Origin: a bacterium
GTDB lineage: Bacteria > CAIJMQ01
Assembly: GCA_023135785.1 (NCBI GenBank)
Contig: JAGLSL010000038.1
Location: 1-37,049 of the forward strand
Length of the DNA stretch: 37,049 nucleotides
Direction of reading: 5' to 3'
Below the pieces are notes generated by a model. That model did no database searches. It saw only the letters and a list, made by a program, of their open reading frames with translations, and was not told where the DNA came from. Position numbers and translations under genes: made by a program. This document shows, one piece after another, positions 3,141-32,212 of this stretch; within the stretch, counting starts at the first letter, position 1; each line of letters starts with the position of its first letter.

Positions 3141-3168
3141 TTGAGTTCACTGAAAATTCCCATATAAT
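3141..3168 (+). promoter_or_regulatory. Predicted promoter of the restriction-modification leader
   Basis: TTGAGT (3141-3146), a 16-bp spacer and TATAAT (3163-3168). The predicted start at about 3175 gives a leader of roughly 200 nt before the first restriction gene at 3373. That leader holds a small reading frame and a series of hairpins. Confidence 0.5.
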
Positions 3169-3205
3169 AGGGGGAAATTTTGACTTTTAAGTTGTAAGGA
3201 GTAAA

Positions 3206-3301
3206 ATGAATTTAAATATAACAGTCCTGAGTTTAGAAGGGGGAACCTGGACACTAAAACCAGTCAAAAACTGGTCCGCCAATTTTTGTGGTGGAAAGTA
3301 A
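3206..3301 (+). CDS. Possible 31-residue leader peptide
   Basis: A short frame of 31 codons plus stop, beginning MNLNITVLSLEGG and ending NFCGGK. It has an AAGGA Shine-Dalgarno at 3196-3200, 5 nt before the ATG, and lies 30 nt downstream of a predicted promoter. Its stop codon shares its last base with the first base of a terminator-like hairpin (3301-3356). No family is recognised. It could be a leader peptide controlling the downstream operon, a very small antitoxin or regulator, or chance. The two small hairpins inside it (3259-3275 and 3276-3294) would be disrupted by translating ribosomes, which is why an attenuation role is suggested. Confidence 0.3.
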   Translation: MNLNITVLSLEGGTWTLKPVKNWSANFCGGK

Positions 3302-3356
3302 AACCTTCGCTTTACCTGCCTCGCTGAGGGCAGGAAAAAAGGCGAGGGTTTTTTGT
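3301..3356 (+). terminator. Terminator-like hairpin before the restriction operon
   Basis: AAACCTTCGC (3301-3310) pairs with GCGAGGGTTT (3342-3351) with a single G-U pair. Inside it, CCTGCC (3315-3320) pairs with GGCAGG (3329-3334). A run of T follows to 3354. It sits between the small leader frame and the GGAGG ribosome binding site of the gene at 3373, so it would end the leader transcript unless read through. Confidence 0.55.
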
Positions 3357-3372
3357 TGGGGGAGGAAATTTT

Positions 3373-4299
3373 ATGAAAAGCTACTATCGAATAATGCTGG
3401 GTCGTCAAAGTGCGCATGCAGACGAGGCCTACAAGGGAAATTTTATCGGTGTAGGATGGTTTAAAAACATAGATTTAACAAACAAGTTATTAGAAGACTG
3501 GCGAGAGTTTAGAAAAGAAATAATTCCCTTATATCTTAAAGAATACCCCGACAAATCAAAGATTGCGGCTGGGCTTGCTTGTAGCATGTTATGGAGCATA
3601 AGTAAGGGCATACTTATAGACGATATTGTTTTGTGTCCAGATGGTAAAGGCTCATACTATGTTGGAGAAGTTATAATAAATTATTCTTACCATAAGGGAG
3701 CAAATCTTCCACATCAACGAGGTGTTCGTTGGTTCTCAAATACAATCGAAAGAACACAAATGAGTCAAGCCTTGCAATACTCTACTGGTGCAATTGGAAC
3801 ATTGAGTAACGTTACTAAATACGCAGGAGAAATAGAACAACTAATTGCTGGAGATCGTCCACCAACTATTTTCGCAACTGATAAATCTATTGAAGACCCA
3901 ACGGCATTTGCTATAGAAAAACACCTAGAGGATTTCTTGGTGCAAAATTGGAAACACACTGAACTTGACAAAAAATACGATATCTTTGAAGTGGAAGGAG
4001 AACTTGTCGGACAGCAATACAAAAGTGACACTGGATCAATAGATATTTTGGCGATTAGCAAGAATAAAAAAGAATTACTAATAGTAGAGCTCAAAAAAGG
4101 ACGAGCAAGTGATGTAGTTATTGGGCAAGTCCAACGCTATATGGGATATGTTAAGGAAGAGTTGGCAGAAGAAGGGCAAGTTGTTCGGGGAGTAATTATT
4201 GCATTGGAAGATGATATTCGTTTACGAAGAGCACTATCAGTTGCCCAGAATATTGATTTTTATACCTATACAATCGATTTCAAACTTATAAAAAAGTAA
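3373..4299 (+). CDS. PUA/EVE-like plus NucS-type PD-(D/E)XK restriction nuclease
   Basis: A 308-residue protein of two parts. Residues 1 to about 150 (YYRIMLGRQSAHADEAYKG..., FIGVGW, GDIV-like DDIVLCPDG, GVRW) resemble PUA/EVE-type domains found at the N-terminus of Mrr-like restriction proteins, which read modified bases. Residues about 175-300 match the NucS/EndoMS C-terminal nuclease: the PD-(D/E)XK core is SIDILA (Asp224) and VELKK (Glu239, Lys241), followed by GQVQRYMGYVKEEL. It is the first gene of a four-gene operon, with a GGAGG ribosome binding site and 3 nt to the next gene. It may be a second, modification-dependent nuclease or an accessory factor of the type IIS system. Activity is inferred from motifs only. 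Confidence 0.75.
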   Translation: MKSYYRIMLGRQSAHADEAYKGNFIGVGWFKNIDLTNKLLEDWREFRKEIIPLYLKEYPDKSKIAAGLACSMLWSISKGILIDDIVLCPDGKGSYYVGEVIINYSYHKGANLPHQRGVRWFSNTIERTQMSQALQYSTGAIGTLSNVTKYAGEIEQLIAGDRPPTIFATDKSIEDPTAFAIEKHLEDFLVQNWKHTELDKKYDIFEVEGELVGQQYKSDTGSIDILAISKNKKELLIVELKKGRASDVVIGQVQRYMGYVKEELAEEGQVVRGVIIALEDDIRLRRALSVAQNIDFYTYTIDFKLIKK

Positions 4300-4302
4300 A
4301 CT

Positions 4303-6123
4303 ATGGCAAAACTTAAAGATATTCCAAAAGTTAATAGGCCCAGAGAGCGATTCTTAGAGAAAGGACCGGATGCACTATCTAAAAGCGAGCTTTTGGCTAT
4401 TTTGCTTGGTAGTGGAATAAAAGGGAAGAATGTCAAAGAATTAGCTGGGCAGATTGTTAGAAAGTTTAGCGCGAAATTCTTAAATTTATCTATTGATGAT
4501 CTTCTTGAAATTCAAGGGATTGGCCAGGCAAAAGCTTTGCAAATTGTTTCTGCTTTGGAGTTGGTAAAAAGGTTTTACTTGGATTCTTCCCCAAAGGACA
4601 ATATCATTTTGGCAGCACAAGATGCAATTTCTATAACTTCCGATATACGAGATAAGAAAAAAGAATATCTGGTATGTCTTTATCTCAACGCAAGAAATGT
4701 GCTGATTAAAAAAGAAGTTATTTCAATTGGTATATTAGATAAAAGCATTATTCATCCACGCGAAATTTTTGGGCCTGCCGTAGAGTTAAGGGCGGCTGGT
4801 ATCGTTCTATTGCACAATCACCCGTCGGGAGATGTTACTCCTAGCAAGCAAGATATCGAGATCGTAAATAAAATTCTCGAGGCGGGGAAAATAATGGGCG
4901 TAAATGTTATTGACTTTATTATCGTTAGTGAAAACAGTACTCATAGCTTTTTTACTGATATGCAAAACCCTGACCAGAAAGTCACGTCTTATGTTTCCGA
5001 TGGCGTACAGTATTCGCTTTTTGATCTATTGGAAACCAAACAACCGACGTATACACCAGAAATTAAAAAAATACATAAAGTATATTTTTATCCCGATAAT
5101 AGAACAAAGTCCGGACATTTCCAGCTACAAAATAGAAGGTTTTTAGGAAATAAGTATAAACTGCTTGGTTTTATTGAGGACATTGTTAACGAAAAGTGCA
5201 ATGGCTTCGGTGTATTTTGCGATATTTTTGCAGGTACCGGTGTTGTAGGCGAGCGGTTTAACGAGAAAAGTATAAAGATTATTGCGAATGATTTTTTAAC
5301 AAGCAATTACCTTCCATTAAAAGCCTTTTTGGGAACTTCGGAAATTGATTTTGAAGAAGTAGAAAAGAAAATAAGATTGCTTAATAACTTAGAAGCACAC
5401 AATGATAATTATTTTTCAAGACATTTCGGTAATACCTTTTTTACCTTAGAGAATGCCCGTAAAATCGGAGTTATTAGGGAAAAAATTGACAAGATTGCAG
5501 AAAACGAAAATGAAAAAGCGATTTTGATTACCGCATTGCTCTATGCAGTCGATAAGGTAGCAAATACGGTTGGTCATTATGACGCGTACAGAAAGAAATT
5601 AGACACAATTCAGCCATTGCGCCTTTTAGTTCCAGATTTTGAGCCAGAGAATAATTCAAATAACGAAATATACAAAGAAAACGCAAACCAGCTTATTAGA
5701 AAAATAAATTGCGATGTCTTGTATATTGATCCTCCCTATAACTCTCGCCAGTACTCAGATGCGTACCATTTATTAGAAAACCTTGCCATGTGGGAAAAGC
5801 CATTGGTTCACGGCAAAGCGAAAAAAATGGACAGAACACATATTAAAAGTGATTACTGCTTAAAATCGGCGTCGAGAGCGTTTACTGATTTGATTTCTAA
5901 TGCAAACTGTAAGCATATTTTAGTCTCTTATAATAATACGGGCGAATCTAAGGATGGACGATCAAATGCTCGGATTAGTGATGAACTGATGATAAATATA
6001 TTAAAAACTCGTGGCGGTGTTGATATTTTTGAACGAGATTATAAAGCATTTACAACTGGCAAAAGTAATACAGATGGACACACTGAGCGAGTTTTTTATT
6101 GCAAAGTAACAAAACAATTATGA
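4303..6123 (+). CDS. RadC (JAMM) - DNA adenine methyltransferase fusion
   Basis: A 606-residue fusion. Residues 1-~225 are a complete RadC/UPF0758 protein: the N-terminal PRERF and GPDALSKSELLAILLGSG segments, a helix-hairpin-helix (QGIGQAKALQ, 71-80) and the JAMM metal site HNHPSGDVTPSKQD (His171, His173, Asp184). Residues ~285-606 are an alpha-class (D12-type) N6-adenine methyltransferase: motif X NRRFLGNKYK, motif I DIFAGTGVVG (307-316) and motif IV DPPY (476-479). A linker of about 50 residues joins them with no frame break. It overlaps the AlwI-family endonuclease gene by 4 nt, so the methyltransferase half probably protects one strand of that enzyme's asymmetric site. The role of the RadC half is unknown. 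Confidence 0.85.
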   Translation: MAKLKDIPKVNRPRERFLEKGPDALSKSELLAILLGSGIKGKNVKELAGQIVRKFSAKFLNLSIDDLLEIQGIGQAKALQIVSALELVKRFYLDSSPKDNIILAAQDAISITSDIRDKKKEYLVCLYLNARNVLIKKEVISIGILDKSIIHPREIFGPAVELRAAGIVLLHNHPSGDVTPSKQDIEIVNKILEAGKIMGVNVIDFIIVSENSTHSFFTDMQNPDQKVTSYVSDGVQYSLFDLLETKQPTYTPEIKKIHKVYFYPDNRTKSGHFQLQNRRFLGNKYKLLGFIEDIVNEKCNGFGVFCDIFAGTGVVGERFNEKSIKIIANDFLTSNYLPLKAFLGTSEIDFEEVEKKIRLLNNLEAHNDNYFSRHFGNTFFTLENARKIGVIREKIDKIAENENEKAILITALLYAVDKVANTVGHYDAYRKKLDTIQPLRLLVPDFEPENNSNNEIYKENANQLIRKINCDVLYIDPPYNSRQYSDAYHLLENLAMWEKPLVHGKAKKMDRTHIKSDYCLKSASRAFTDLISNANCKHILVSYNNTGESKDGRSNARISDELMINILKTRGGVDIFERDYKAFTTGKSNTDGHTERVFYCKVTKQL

Positions 6124-7952
6124 GAAAACCTTGGTCAATATCAACAACTGTTAGAAACCCCGATAGATTACGGGACTTCTTGCTCGTTTTGAAAGAGTTA
6201 GAGAGACAACCGTTTAATTTGGAAAATCAAATTGAATATCAAATTCTTCTCATTCAAAATAAGATATACAAACCGACTGATTTAACTAAAGAGCAAAAAG
6301 AGTATTTTGATGATCTTGAAAAAGAAATGCCATCTTCTCTAGCAAAAGAAATTTTTAATGCACAAAATTATAAAGACCCTGCAATGCGTGGCCGAAACTC
6401 TGTTGCACCACTTAATAAAATGGGATTATGTATTGCAAAAAATTCGGCTGAAGGCGTGAAAATAACCCCGCTTGGCGAATATTTCCTTTCCGAGGAGTAT
6501 GATTTAGGTAAATTATTCTTTATCCATTTTTTGAAATGGCAACTTCCCAATCCAGCAAGTAGGACATTTTCTAAAAGAGATGGATTCTCTATCAAACCTT
6601 TTATTGGGACTTTACATCTTATTAACGAAGTAAATAAAATATGGGGCAAACTTGGGAGGGATCCAATCGGAATAAACAAGGATGAATTTTCTCTTTTTGC
6701 TTTAACACTTATTGATTATAAGAGCATCAAAAAACAAGCGGAAAAATTGATTGAATATCGCACTGGACTACGTTCACAGAAAGATGACAAGAGTAGAAAA
6801 CACTTCAAAGAACAATTTAGGAAAAACTTTGCCATGGCATTTTTAGGAACAGAAAAAACTGACGAAATTACAAAGCTACTCAACAACCTTAAGGATTATG
6901 GCGACAATGCAATTCGATATTTTAGATTGACCAGATACTTACATATTCGAGGTGGTGGATTTTATGTTGATCTGGAGCCAAGAAGGTCTATTGAAATTGA
7001 TAATCTGCTATCAACCGATAATGCTTCTCCTTTAGTATTTGAAAATGCCGATGCATATATAGAATATCTTGCCGATATTGAGCAACCTGTTTTGCCGTGG
7101 GAGACAAAATCTGAATTAGTAAAAATTGCAGAAAAGCTAACCCAAGATGCAAAGAATTACGTAGCGGCTTTGATATCAAAAGCGATAAGCGTTTCTGTCT
7201 TTAATTTTCAAGGGGTAAAATCTTTGAATACAGAACAGCTAAAGCAATATATTGAAGATTTACGATTTTATCGTAGAAAACTGCAAGAAGTGGAAACTCG
7301 TTTTGAGTCCCAAGATGTATCGAAAATCAAGGAATACATCAACGCACTCCAAACTATTCATAAATCAAGCAAAAAAAAGAGCATTGAACTTGAAAGACTC
7401 TCAACGCTTGCACTCAATGCTCTCAACGATGCATTAGAGATAAAACCAAACTATCCGGTGGGTGATGATAATGAACCAACTTTTACTGCACCCGCTAATA
7501 AACCAGACATAGAATGCTTCTACGAAAAGTTTAATTCGGTATGTGAAGTTACAATGCTTACAAATCGTTCGCAATGGTATAACGAAGGCCAGCCAGTCAT
7601 GCGCCATGTGAGAGATTTCGAGAATTTCCACACCGACAAAGCAACTTATTGCCTATTTATCGCTCCGCGGCTACATCAAGATACAGTAGAGACGTTCTGG
7701 ATGGCAATTAAATATGGGTACAAAGGAGCAACACAAAGAATCGTTCCTCTTTCCATTGCGCAATTTATTAGATTGCTCGAAATTCTCCTGGAAGTCCGAA
7801 AGAAAGGGAATCAATTTACACATGATGAATTATTAAATCTTTACAAGCAAGTTTTGGGGCTTACGAATCATGTAACACATTCTGAGGAGTGGATTGAGCG
7901 AATACCGGAGACAATCACTGCTTGGCAAAAATCTGTTTTAGCAAAGCAATAA
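6120..7952 (+). CDS. AlwI-family type IIS restriction endonuclease
   Basis: A 610-residue protein matching the AlwI/MlyI/PleI/BstNBI restriction family. The N-terminus KPWSISTTVRNPDRLRDFL is characteristic. The C-terminal catalytic region has PDIECFYEKFNSVCEVTML (Asp463, Glu476), the family's variant of PD-(D/E)XK in which the usual lysine position is not K, followed by the conserved EGQPVMRHV. Known members bind short asymmetric sites (GGATC, GAGTC) and cut a few bases away. The ATG at 6120 overlaps the previous stop (ATGA) and is preferred to an in-frame TTG at 6099. Two methyltransferases flank it, as expected for an asymmetric site needing one enzyme per strand. The actual specificity cannot be read from sequence. 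Confidence 0.85.
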   Translation: MRKPWSISTTVRNPDRLRDFLLVLKELERQPFNLENQIEYQILLIQNKIYKPTDLTKEQKEYFDDLEKEMPSSLAKEIFNAQNYKDPAMRGRNSVAPLNKMGLCIAKNSAEGVKITPLGEYFLSEEYDLGKLFFIHFLKWQLPNPASRTFSKRDGFSIKPFIGTLHLINEVNKIWGKLGRDPIGINKDEFSLFALTLIDYKSIKKQAEKLIEYRTGLRSQKDDKSRKHFKEQFRKNFAMAFLGTEKTDEITKLLNNLKDYGDNAIRYFRLTRYLHIRGGGFYVDLEPRRSIEIDNLLSTDNASPLVFENADAYIEYLADIEQPVLPWETKSELVKIAEKLTQDAKNYVAALISKAISVSVFNFQGVKSLNTEQLKQYIEDLRFYRRKLQEVETRFESQDVSKIKEYINALQTIHKSSKKKSIELERLSTLALNALNDALEIKPNYPVGDDNEPTFTAPANKPDIECFYEKFNSVCEVTMLTNRSQWYNEGQPVMRHVRDFENFHTDKATYCLFIAPRLHQDTVETFWMAIKYGYKGATQRIVPLSIAQFIRLLEILLEVRKKGNQFTHDELLNLYKQVLGLTNHVTHSEEWIERIPETITAWQKSVLAKQ

Positions 7953-7954
7953 TT

Positions 7955-8770
7955 ATGAAATTGGATACTATTTACCAAGGCGATTGCATAAAAGTTTTGA
8001 ATGAAAAAATTGATAAAAAATCAGTTGATTTGATTTTTGCCGACCCCCCCTACAATCTTTCCGGCAATGGACTCAAATGGGAGGGCAATAAAACTGGTGG
8101 TGATTGGTATATGGTAAATGAAGAATGGGACAAGATGACTGCTCCAGAGTATATACAATTTACAAAAAAGTGGATTGGAGCTTGCTTCAAGGTATTAAAA
8201 AACAACGGCTCAATTTACATTTCTTGCACCTATCACAATATTGCTGAGGTAATGATTGTTCTTAAACAACTCGACTTCAAAATCAACAATGTTATTGTTT
8301 GGCAAAAGACAAATGCGATGCCCAACATGACCAAAAGGGTTTTTACTCACTCAACAGAATTTGTTGTATGGGCTGTGAAAGGCAAAAAATGGGTATTTAA
8401 CTACCAAGAGCTTAAAAAAATAAATCCTGAGAAGCAAAAAGATAATTCTCCAAAGCAAATGAGAGATGTTTGGTCTCTACCTCTTGTGCAAGGCAAAGAG
8501 AGATTGCATGGAAAAGATGGTCGCGCCCTACATCCAACCCAAAAGCCAGAAGAAATGCTAAAAAGGATAATTATTGCCTCATCAAACAAGGGTGATTTAA
8601 TTCTTGATCCTTTTTTAGGAAGTGGCACAACGGCGGTGATTGCTGAAAAACTTAGCAGAAACTGGATAGGAATTGAAAAGAATAAAAAGTATATTGAAGC
8701 GGCAAAAAAAAGAATTCACAATGAAAAAAAGAAAAAATTGAAAAAGAAAGTATTAAGAGATGATAGTTAA
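7955..8770 (+). CDS. Beta-class DNA methyltransferase
   Basis: A 271-residue methyltransferase in the beta arrangement: catalytic motif IV ADPPYN (DPPY 30-33) near the N-terminus, and the S-adenosylmethionine motif DPFLGSGTT (from Asp218) near the C-terminus, followed by AEKLSRNWIGIEKNKKYIEAA. DPPY favours N6-adenine, though N4-cytosine enzymes of this class exist. The ATG is at 7955, 2 nt after the endonuclease stop; an upstream in-frame TTG lies inside that gene and is less likely. It is the second methyltransferase of the operon and probably modifies the opposite strand of the type IIS site. The C-terminus is very lysine-rich. Confidence 0.87.
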   Translation: MKLDTIYQGDCIKVLNEKIDKKSVDLIFADPPYNLSGNGLKWEGNKTGGDWYMVNEEWDKMTAPEYIQFTKKWIGACFKVLKNNGSIYISCTYHNIAEVMIVLKQLDFKINNVIVWQKTNAMPNMTKRVFTHSTEFVVWAVKGKKWVFNYQELKKINPEKQKDNSPKQMRDVWSLPLVQGKERLHGKDGRALHPTQKPEEMLKRIIIASSNKGDLILDPFLGSGTTAVIAEKLSRNWIGIEKNKKYIEAAKKRIHNEKKKKLKKKVLRDDS

Positions 8771-9000: not shown

Positions 9001-9744
9001 ATGCCTAAAAAACCGGCGTTGGTTGGGATTGTTCCCAGAAAAGAACTTTGGCCTAAAATTCAAAAAGAAGGTTGGTATCATATCCCTGTTAAATCTGCGC
9101 CCAAGAATGCCGATGTAATAGAGTATCTGGCTTTTTATTTTCCAAAAGTTTTCGGGGATGAGTATCAGTATAGAGTAATTTATTACGCAAAAGTTTTAGG
9201 ATGCGAGACAACTAAAAGAATTAACCTTTTCCCCGATGAACCCGCCCATCCAAAGGCAATGAATGATTATTTTAAGTTCTCTTTGGCCGAAATAGAAAAA
9301 TTGCCAAAACCAATCCCAAGCAAAACGTGGAGAAGAATTATTCATATACCCACGAGTTTGGAAAAGTTATTGACTGCGGAAGAAATTAATGATTTGTGGG
9401 ATAGCAGCCCTTTGGAAGAGAAAATGTATTTGGAAATGAAAAAGCGAGATATAGAAGCGCAAAGGCAGTTTTATGTTAAAGTTGGCAGGCAGTTTTATTG
9501 TTTGGATTTTGGCGTGTTTTGTCGTGAAGGGAATATTGATATTGAATGTGATGGTGAGAAATATCATATTTTACCCGAAGCAATGACTAAAGATAGACAA
9601 CGGAATAATCAATTAACCAGTTGCGGATGGAGTGTGTTGAGATTTTTGGGCAAAGAAATTAATGGCGATATTGGGGGCTGTTTTACGACAATAGAAAAAA
9701 CCATAAATAATTTGGGCGGTTTCAAAATTAGGGACCCAAATTAG
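9001..9744 (+). CDS. DUF559/Vsr-like PD-(D/E)XK nuclease-domain protein
   Basis: A 247-residue protein. The C-terminal third matches the DUF559/Vsr-like endonuclease fold: GNIDIECDGEKYH (near residues 178-190) gives the acidic residues, then KDRQRNNQLTSCGWSVLRFLGKEI, where the lysine/arginine helix and the GWxVLRF strand are diagnostic. The N-terminal ~120 residues are not recognised and may read the substrate. No Shine-Dalgarno is evident before the ATG. The last codons (KIRDPN) are encoded by a repeated word (AAATTAGGGAC at 9724 and 9737), so the C-terminus merges into repeat DNA. The gene lies between 24-bp direct repeats just after the restriction operon, suggesting a mobile defence or repair cassette. 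Confidence 0.75.
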   Translation: MPKKPALVGIVPRKELWPKIQKEGWYHIPVKSAPKNADVIEYLAFYFPKVFGDEYQYRVIYYAKVLGCETTKRINLFPDEPAHPKAMNDYFKFSLAEIEKLPKPIPSKTWRRIIHIPTSLEKLLTAEEINDLWDSSPLEEKMYLEMKKRDIEAQRQFYVKVGRQFYCLDFGVFCREGNIDIECDGEKYHILPEAMTKDRQRNNQLTSCGWSVLRFLGKEINGDIGGCFTTIEKTINNLGGFKIRDPN

Positions 9745-9799
9745 GGACAGCGCCCATTAAAAAATACGACGGATGCGAAATAGAAGGACAGATTGAATT

Positions 9800-9850
9800 G
9801 GATTCCCGCCCACCACTAAAGATTGGCAGGTAAACTTTCGCGAGAATGAC
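9800..9850. repeat. 51-nt palindromic repeat, inverted copy
   Basis: Reverse-complement copy of 2103-2153, with arms GATTCCCGCC and GGCAGG. It lies in the 9745-9991 gap, which otherwise holds the direct repeat at 9886-9909 and a CCCTGAA/TTCAGGG hairpin around 9955-9978. Confidence 0.7.
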
Positions 9851-9885
9851 AAAAGGGGAGTTTACCCCTGCAAAAAGAAAGAGCA

Positions 9886-30701: not shown

Positions 30702-30731
30702 ATGAAGTTAGTTTTAGGAGTTGACAGGTAA
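30702..30731 (+). pseudogene. Possible 5' remnant of an interrupted gene
   Basis: After TACGTGGAGAAAAAAGGCA the sequence reads ATG and nine codons, MKLVLGVDR, then a stop. MKxxLGVD is how many actin/RNase-H-fold proteins begin (for example RuvC-like or BadF/BadG-type genes). This may be the start of a gene cut by arrival of the restriction-modification unit. The evidence is only nine residues. Confidence 0.2.
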
Positions 30732-30792
30732 AAAAGAGTTTTTTATCCACTATTTTATATTTTTAATGTTTGATATAATAATTAAAGAAACG

Positions 30793-31725
30793 ATGAACGC
30801 AATTTCAATTAGAGATAAGGCTTGGCAAAATACTGACCGTATCCCTATTTGGGTTCGTGGTAGGGAAATTGGATTAGACCAATTTAATACTTTACCCGAA
30901 GTAGCAAAGTATTGCTGGAACTCATTGCAAAAATTTCTTAAAAAAGATAAGGTGATTTTAAATAATTATAAGATTATTGAACCAAGTGCAGGGACTGGTT
31001 CTTTTTATAATCTTTTACCCAAAAAAAATCGCATTGGTATAGATGTAGAAAAATATAATAAAGAATATGTCCAGCAGGACTTTTTAACTTGGGAACCAAA
31101 TCATACAGACAATAGACCCTGTATCTCGATCGGAAATCCTCCGTTTGGGTATAGGGGTTGGCTGGCATTAGCTTTTATAAATCGTGCAGCAGAATTTTGC
31201 AATTATGTGGGGTTTATTTTGCCAATGTCATTCCAGAGTGATGGAAAGGGTAGTCCTAAAAACAGAGTGATAGGAATGAAATTAGTCCATTCAGAAAAAC
31301 TTCCAAACGATTTATTTGTATTACCCAACGGAGAAAAAACGCAGATAAATACCCTTTGGCAGATTTGGAAAAAGGGCAATGCTCCTGCTTTACCCGATTT
31401 AAGCGAATGCGACCCTTTTATTGATTTGTTTACGGTTGATTTACGAAAAGAAAGATTGTGCGGTATGAATAAAATTGATAATTGCAATACTTTTCTACAA
31501 AGAACATATTTTGGAAAATATCCAAAGTTGGTTAATAATTTTTCAAAAGTAAAATATGGTTGTGGCTATGGTATCTTAATTAAAAAAGAGAAAAGAAAAA
31601 TCACAAAAATTTTAAAGAGTATAAATTGGGATAAATACAGCAATCTTGCAGCACATAATTGTAGACATATTTCTATGTATCATATTAAACAAGCATTAAT
31701 AGAAAATGGAAAATTAAATGTCTGA
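30793..31725 (+). CDS. N6-adenine-type DNA methyltransferase
   Basis: A 310-residue methyltransferase with gamma-like order: S-adenosylmethionine motif I EPSAGTGSFYNLLP (from Glu63), an acidic GIDVEKYN loop, and catalytic motif IV IGNPPF (Asn115-Phe118), the N6-adenine signature. The C-terminal half lacks recognised motifs and probably reads DNA. The start is placed at ATG 30793; ATG 30766 and TTG 30721 are in frame, but a TTGACA at 30721 looks like a -35 and the extra residues are hydrophobic and AT-rich. It overlaps the nuclease gene by 8 nt, so it is probably the modification half of a type II pair. Confidence 0.8.
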   Translation: MNAISIRDKAWQNTDRIPIWVRGREIGLDQFNTLPEVAKYCWNSLQKFLKKDKVILNNYKIIEPSAGTGSFYNLLPKKNRIGIDVEKYNKEYVQQDFLTWEPNHTDNRPCISIGNPPFGYRGWLALAFINRAAEFCNYVGFILPMSFQSDGKGSPKNRVIGMKLVHSEKLPNDLFVLPNGEKTQINTLWQIWKKGNAPALPDLSECDPFIDLFTVDLRKERLCGMNKIDNCNTFLQRTYFGKYPKLVNNFSKVKYGCGYGILIKKEKRKITKILKSINWDKYSNLAAHNCRHISMYHIKQALIENGKLNV

Positions 31726-32212
31726 CCCTCTCAAAATTTTTCGTGATGTTGCGATAAGCAAAATAATAGATAAAAAGTGGGCAGGACAACCTCACGAAGC
31801 CTTTAAACATTTAGGCAATACCAGTAAGGGAGATACTGGGCAAGAATTTATAACACAATATGCGAGAGAACTTGGCTTTACTGCTGAAAATTTTGGACGC
31901 ACTGGGGATAAAGATATAACAATTGGAAATAAAAATTTTGAGGTAAAGTTAGCATCTGAAGATACTGCGGGTAGTTTTCAATTTAATCATATTCGTCTTG
32001 ATTATAGATACGATTTTATTATATGTTTAGGTGTTACTCCGAGTAAACTGCTTTTCCAAACATATAGTAAGGCAGACATTGCAACCAACAAGGTGGGAAC
32101 TTTAGTATCTATGGGGCGAGGTCAAAATTCAAGTTTCAAACTCACCAAAAAGAAATGCGATTTATTAGATATCCACAACCTTAAAGATGTTCTTTCGGAA
32201 CTATTGAAGTAA
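31718..32212 (+). CDS. PD-(D/E)XK type II restriction endonuclease-like protein
   Basis: A 164-residue protein with a compact PD-(D/E)XK core: Glu43 in GQEFITQYARELGF, Asp66 in GRTGDKDITIG, and Glu75-x-Lys77 in NFEVKLAS, followed by FQFNHIRLDYRYDFIICLGV. This fits small type II endonucleases; I cannot assign a named subfamily. It overlaps the upstream methyltransferase gene by 8 nt, which strongly supports a restriction-modification pair. Recognition site unknown. The small size suggests a dimer acting on a palindromic site, which is inference. Confidence 0.72.
   Translation: MSDPLKIFRDVAISKIIDKKWAGQPHEAFKHLGNTSKGDTGQEFITQYARELGFTAENFGRTGDKDITIGNKNFEVKLASEDTAGSFQFNHIRLDYRYDFIICLGVTPSKLLFQTYSKADIATNKVGTLVSMGRGQNSSFKLTKKKCDLLDIHNLKDVLSELLK

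Follow-up and report, generated by a model that had tools for sequence, protein, structure and literature searches.

A RadC-adenine methylase fusion with a putative clamp-binding linker in a recurrent AlwI-type restriction-modification cassette

What a RadC module contributes to a DNA methylase, and which neighboring genes belong with such a fusion, are questions raised by a four-gene locus in a draft bacterial genome of 1.34 Mb in 104 contigs. The function of RadC, a widespread protein, is disputed. We analyzed a stretch of 37,049 nucleotides of this genome (the window), in which a RadC module is joined to an adenine methylase next to an AlwI-type endonuclease, a second methylase and a further nuclease gene.

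Four consecutive ORFs occupy the plus strand at positions 3373–8770, and their coordinates bore out the spacings of +3, −4 and +2 given by the first-pass annotation. That annotation had placed the block at 3141–8770; its end held, and its start moved to 3373, with no long ORF at 3141–3372. Its domain calls agreed with the profiles: a NucS-type nuclease domain in gene 1 (g1; 3373–4299, 308 residues), a RadC-D12 adenine methylase fusion in g2 (M1; 4303–6123, 606 residues; Pfam UPF0758_N, RadC and MethyltransfD12), an AlwI/N.BspD6I-type endonuclease in g3 (6120–7952, 610 residues; PF09491 RE_AlwI, E 4e-84) and a beta-class, CcrM-like adenine methylase in g4 (M2; 7955–8770, 271 residues; PF01555 N6_N4_Mtase, E 2e-64). 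The start ATG of g3 sits within an ATGA overlap with g2.

The endonuclease is homologous to N.BspD6I over nearly its full length (2ewf, E 8e-34), and its acidic residues D463, E476 and E489 are invariant and aligned with those of N.BspD6I. Because identity to the AlwI-family enzymes is about 25%, a recognition site is not transferable from them to g3. In the AlwI family, the two strands of an asymmetric site each have their own methylase (PMC9799307), and two methylases stand beside g3. The D12 domain of M1 (5140–5901, plus strand; residues 280–533; PF02086, E 1.1e-29) carries DIFAGTG and DPPY motifs, and residues 272–603 match the PADLOC MTase_II model PDLC03373 (E 1e-118). M2 scored 272 bits with a CcrM model, below the model's cut-off, and a methylase of its type is present in every complete cassette described below. 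Profiles and conserved cassettes together upheld the assignment to an AlwI-type type IIS system with two methylases, in which g3 would bind an asymmetric site and cut or nick beside it, with M1 and M2 each methylating one strand.

A single genome scan with g3 returned 15 loci under many phylum labels. Each window gene was compared with these loci by tblastn, and longer stretches were added from a Patescibacteria sample. The unit that recurs consists of a D12 methylase, an AlwI endonuclease and a CcrM-like methylase, with order and overlaps conserved. At 10 other loci, labeled as several distant phyla, a RadC-D12 fusion is followed by the same endonuclease; RadC is thus fused to the methylase in 11 of the 15 cassettes whose methylase start is readable (the window, L004, L005, L006, L009, L012, L013, L016, L018, L125 and L126). 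A contig end cuts g4 in L006, and L018 is incomplete past the first third of g3. RadC is truncated in L004 only, beside a transposase-like ORF. The four cassettes that lack a fused RadC have LexA in its place (L127) or nothing (L007, L008 and L129, the last with a small HTH-like ORF upstream), and the more distant L014, L015 and L017 carry two beta methylases instead. We rejected a mis-joined frame or a one-off event as the origin of the fusion, which is a single stop-free frame with 11 members. These results demonstrated that the RadC-methylase fusion is genuine and exceeds a minimal type IIS system, as first proposed. Taken by itself, the cassette g2–g4 is very probably a horizontally mobile AlwI-type type IIS restriction-modification system.

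Several loci depart from the common form. The endonuclease of L125 (5191–7008) is 52% identical to g3, and both methylases of that locus are 84–85% identical to those of the window, a pattern that suggests exchange of the endonuclease gene alone. At L010 (375–2261) a D12 fragment is joined to an endonuclease, one having lost its end and the other its start, a sign of either cassette decay or faulty assembly. The cassettes of L008 and L016 lie among ORFs resembling a serine recombinase and phage packaging genes, surroundings that, as read from sequence, hint at carriage by integrating elements. Viral contigs yielded no relatives when scanned with g3 or the D12 part by itself; relatives were recovered with an alignment as query.

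We next consider gene 1. The first-pass annotation had taken all four genes as one composite system in which gene 1, a PUA/EVE-like and NucS-type protein, attacks DNA modified by others. The three-base spacing between g1 and g2 fits this, as does the C terminus of g1, which is a NucS_C domain (PF01939, E 2.9e-8). The protein matches the PADLOC candidate PDC-S02 over its full length (506 bits), and with the NucS equivalog NF003270 it scored 37.8 bits against a cut-off of 216, the C-terminal nuclease domain alone matching. The proposed N terminus received weak support: the AlphaFold model had low confidence (pLDDT 50), and its best N-terminal fold match, a YTH domain, had a probability of 0.91 but an E of 0.04. 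A role for g1 as a reader of modified bases was not supported. Its distribution also disfavors the composite system. By tblastn, g1 was found in none of the related cassettes, neither at the g3-scan loci nor in the Patescibacteria stretches, and it was absent from the same-genus genomes searched. The gene order g2–g4 thus recurs and g1 does not recur with it; of the two components said to go beyond a minimal system, gene 1 is missing from all related cassettes found, and RadC is kept in 11 of 15 cassettes. Homologues of g1 at 56–60% identity sit with other systems: in Acinetobacter, on plasmid DNA, they lie within a type I restriction operon, at L031 next to nuclease-like and helicase-like ORFs, and at L032 next to a YhcG-like ORF, the labels of these three ORFs being read from sequence. 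In the L005 cassette, another candidate defense gene, PDC-S18, occupies the position upstream of g2. The homologues beside other systems and the PDC-S18 in this slot point to g1 as a neighbor that travels among defense loci: judged by its genomic contexts, it is an independent defense-island nuclease and not a member of the cassette. A four-gene composite is most improbable.

Further genes lie nearby. A RhuM-Fic gene (1033–2028; PADLOC candidate PDC-S23) and, directly upstream of the island, a MntA/HepT-like toxin-antitoxin pair (2101–2882; NCBIfam scores just below the cut-offs) precede the four genes. A DUF559 nuclease gene (9001–9744) follows them and was absent from all related AlwI cassette loci compared. 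A second restriction-modification-like pair of overlapping genes lies at 30721–32212 and comprises a PADLOC type II methylase (PDLC03280, E 8e-56) and a small type II endonuclease-like gene (E 2e-11). Inverted repeats of 58 nucleotides, 91% complementary, flank the island at 2098–2155 and 9798–9855; we rejected them as transposon ends, partial copies being scattered across the genome of the window. In an empty-site comparison with a sister genome, the sole matching contig stops within the neighboring gene.

The RadC module of g2 has the full architecture of its family. An N-terminal part with a helix-hairpin-helix (HhH; GIGQAKAL) spans 4315–4536 (residues 5–78; UPF0758_N E 3.5e-22, HHH_5 weak), and a JAB/JAMM domain with an intact HxHx7SxxD motif spans 4621–4950 (residues 107–216; Pfam RadC, PF04002, E 1.8e-34; structural match 2qlc), both on the plus strand. 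The RadC model NF000642 scored 208.7 bits against a cut-off of 180. The HxHx7SxxD motif is found in every alignment row that has a JAB domain, and the GIG..K of the HhH part is conserved. Among the close relatives L005, L006 and L009, dN/dS was 0.014–0.018 for JAB, 0.034–0.050 for HhH and 0.053–0.063 for D12; between the window and L126 it was 0.042, 0.065 and 0.059, respectively, and the other pairs were saturated at synonymous sites. JAB is thus the most conserved part of g2, with the lowest dN/dS of the protein. The low dN/dS and the intact motif indicated that RadC in g2 is under selection and is not baggage; decay was rejected on the same grounds, the only truncated copy being that of L004. 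The host also has an ordinary, separate radC on another contig, so that the RadC of g2 is a second copy.

For the unknown function of RadC, the first-pass annotation had offered branched-DNA recognition or proteolytic control as possible examples. The strength of this constraint bears on whether RadC itself is catalytic. It could be a metal-dependent nucleic-acid-processing enzyme that, for example, trims or tags branched or damaged DNA at restriction cuts, the fusion coupling modification to repair of accidental self-cleavage. The intact metal motif and the constraint on JAB are consistent with such an enzyme, as are a separate RadC-family gene that adjoins another AlwI system (L128) and a domain analysis that places RadC among likely nucleic-acid-processing JAB proteins without a ubiquitin groove (PMC5512222). 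However, no established substrate was found for any RadC, and cassettes L007, L008, L127 and L129 manage without a fused one. We regard this explanation as improbable. The structural model of g2 was not good enough to show how RadC and the methylase are arranged.

Between RadC and the methylase, residues 222–278 form a linker with no predicted structure (in a g2 model of low overall confidence). In an alignment of 11 rows, Q236, L239 and F240 are the only invariant linker residues before Y261. In the window the peptide is Q-Y-S-L-F (5008–5022, plus strand; residues 236–240), and across the alignment it appears as QYSLF, QNSLF, QHSLF, QTSLF, QGTLF or QAPLF. We take the peptide to fit the QL[SD]LF type of beta-clamp-binding motif, a resemblance that is a lead and not proof. 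A conserved Q-x-x-L-F-type peptide in a disordered region, as expected for clamp binding, is present in 11 of 11 rows, with the disorder taken from the low-confidence model.

The motif is not a property of RadC itself. We rejected it as a RadC tail, since three standalone RadCs examined lack it; conversely, it is kept without RadC in L007 and L008. Outside the RadC lineage it stands just before the methylase domain as QLSLF (L050), QLELF (L019) and QLPLF (L069 and L127), and in further forms as QGALF (L076), QEELF (L100) and QQDIF (L091). M2 has no such motif in its sequence. Nine of 36 clusters of AlwI-associated D12 methylases (70% identity) carry it against 0.5 in shuffles, and 27 do not; in terms of density, there are 9 clusters per 1,446 N-terminal residues and 5 matches per 18,773 in-domain residues. 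Because the pattern had been noticed before it was tested, the RadC lineage was left out of a second test, in which 6 of 33 clusters had the motif against 0.34 expected (P<=0.0002), and none of eight unrelated control patterns was enriched. Shuffles and control patterns thus rejected a chance motif. A beta clamp (PF00712) is encoded in 11 of the 13 motif-bearing host genomes searched; the PF00712 search did not find it in two archaeal-labeled bins (G042 and G722), both of which could be misbinned; one of the contigs (L006) is only 4.2 kb.

RadC is one of several occupants of its position. Across D12 methylases, the N-terminal slot is occupied by RadC, LexA or HTH or is empty, and on the D12 tree three changes of the RadC label suffice, versus 9.5 in shuffles. 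L007, which has no RadC, falls inside the RadC group, a placement that suggests loss. L019 is an HTH-D12 fusion (Pfam HTH_17), and the slot of L026 holds a Cro/C1-like HTH, as judged from its sequence. At L127 (2392–4086), LexA with an intact S24 peptidase signature is fused to the D12 methylase through a linker that carries QLPLF, and the cassette is otherwise unchanged. L018 has lexA as the gene immediately upstream of g2, L131 has one next to the system, and L005 and L016 have separate HTH genes upstream.

These occupants raise the question of whether the slot is purely regulatory. RadC would then enable M1 to act as sensor or regulator for the operon that encodes it, responding to DNA damage or incoming DNA, and QxxLF would serve another partner or have a minor role. 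The LexA and HTH fusions of L127 and L019, together with the upstream genes of L005, L016 and L018, argue for such a slot. However, RadC is no known transcription regulator, HTH and LexA genes often adjoin RadC-bearing systems, where regulation may already be covered, and the survival of QxxLF after RadC in L007 is left unexplained. On balance we find a purely regulatory slot rather unlikely.

The explanation that we prefer, and to which we give about an even chance, is an AlwI-type variant in which M1 is tethered to the replication clamp, RadC acts as a DNA-structure or regulatory module, and g1 is separate. The QxxLF peptide, on its flexible linker, would most likely dock on the beta sliding clamp, as its motif, conservation and recurrence suggest, and docking would allow daughter DNA to be re-methylated while it is being made, behind the fork. 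The RadC module, with its HhH and intact JAMM site, would most likely add binding of DNA structures at forks, or regulation, to the methylase, in a slot that relatives fill with HTH or LexA modules. A more specific form, that of a clamp-riding methylase whose RadC recognizes forks or branched DNA, is a tentative possibility; protection would then be established in step with replication, and DNA uncopied by the host replisome would stay exposed.

The putative clamp motif is the most testable new point to come from the sequence. If it works, it would show how a restriction-modification system can shield its own DNA just as that DNA is replicated, and if clamp riding and fork or branch recognition by RadC both hold, RadC would gain a concrete role. 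What RadC does can be tested directly in this cassette, where it is joined to a partner whose chemistry is known, is under tighter constraint than that partner, and can be lost or give way to LexA or HTH. We found no paper describing either a methylase fused to RadC or a restriction-modification methylase with a clamp motif in a search mostly outside subscription journals; relative to that literature the combination is new, and the fusion may stand in REBASE.

Compared with known systems, the cassette is closest in its endonuclease to N.BspD6I/R.BspD6I, BstNBI, PleI, MlyI and AlwI, with which it shares the homology of g3 and two methylases for an asymmetric site. It differs in showing no small subunit in the operon and in the RadC and QxxLF of M1, and the homology of g3 to N.BspD6I fits nicking as well as dimeric double-strand cleavage. 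In AlwI systems on Enterococcus, Staphylococcus and Lactococcus plasmids (L019, L020 and L025), a methylase whose D12 part is 47–50% identical to that of the window likewise precedes an AlwI endonuclease, but its N terminus is HTH rather than RadC, and the second methylase is D12 rather than CcrM-like. With PDC-S02 and NucS (EndoMS), g1 shares the full-length PDC-S02 match and the NucS-type C-terminal nuclease domain, respectively; its N-terminal half is not NucS-like, and it stands outside the AlwI cassette. The RadC module shares with the RadC family (UPF0758) the complete HhH and JAB architecture and the metal motif, with 2qlc as the closest solved structure, but is fused to a methylase through a QxxLF linker foreign to the three standalone proteins examined. 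Finally, M.EcoGIX and M.BceJIII are plasmid methylases tied to replication through DNA polymerase I (PMC7736820). The link between methylation and the replication machinery resembles the docking proposed for M1, whereas their partner is DNA polymerase I, and, as described, they come without an endonuclease such as that of this cassette.
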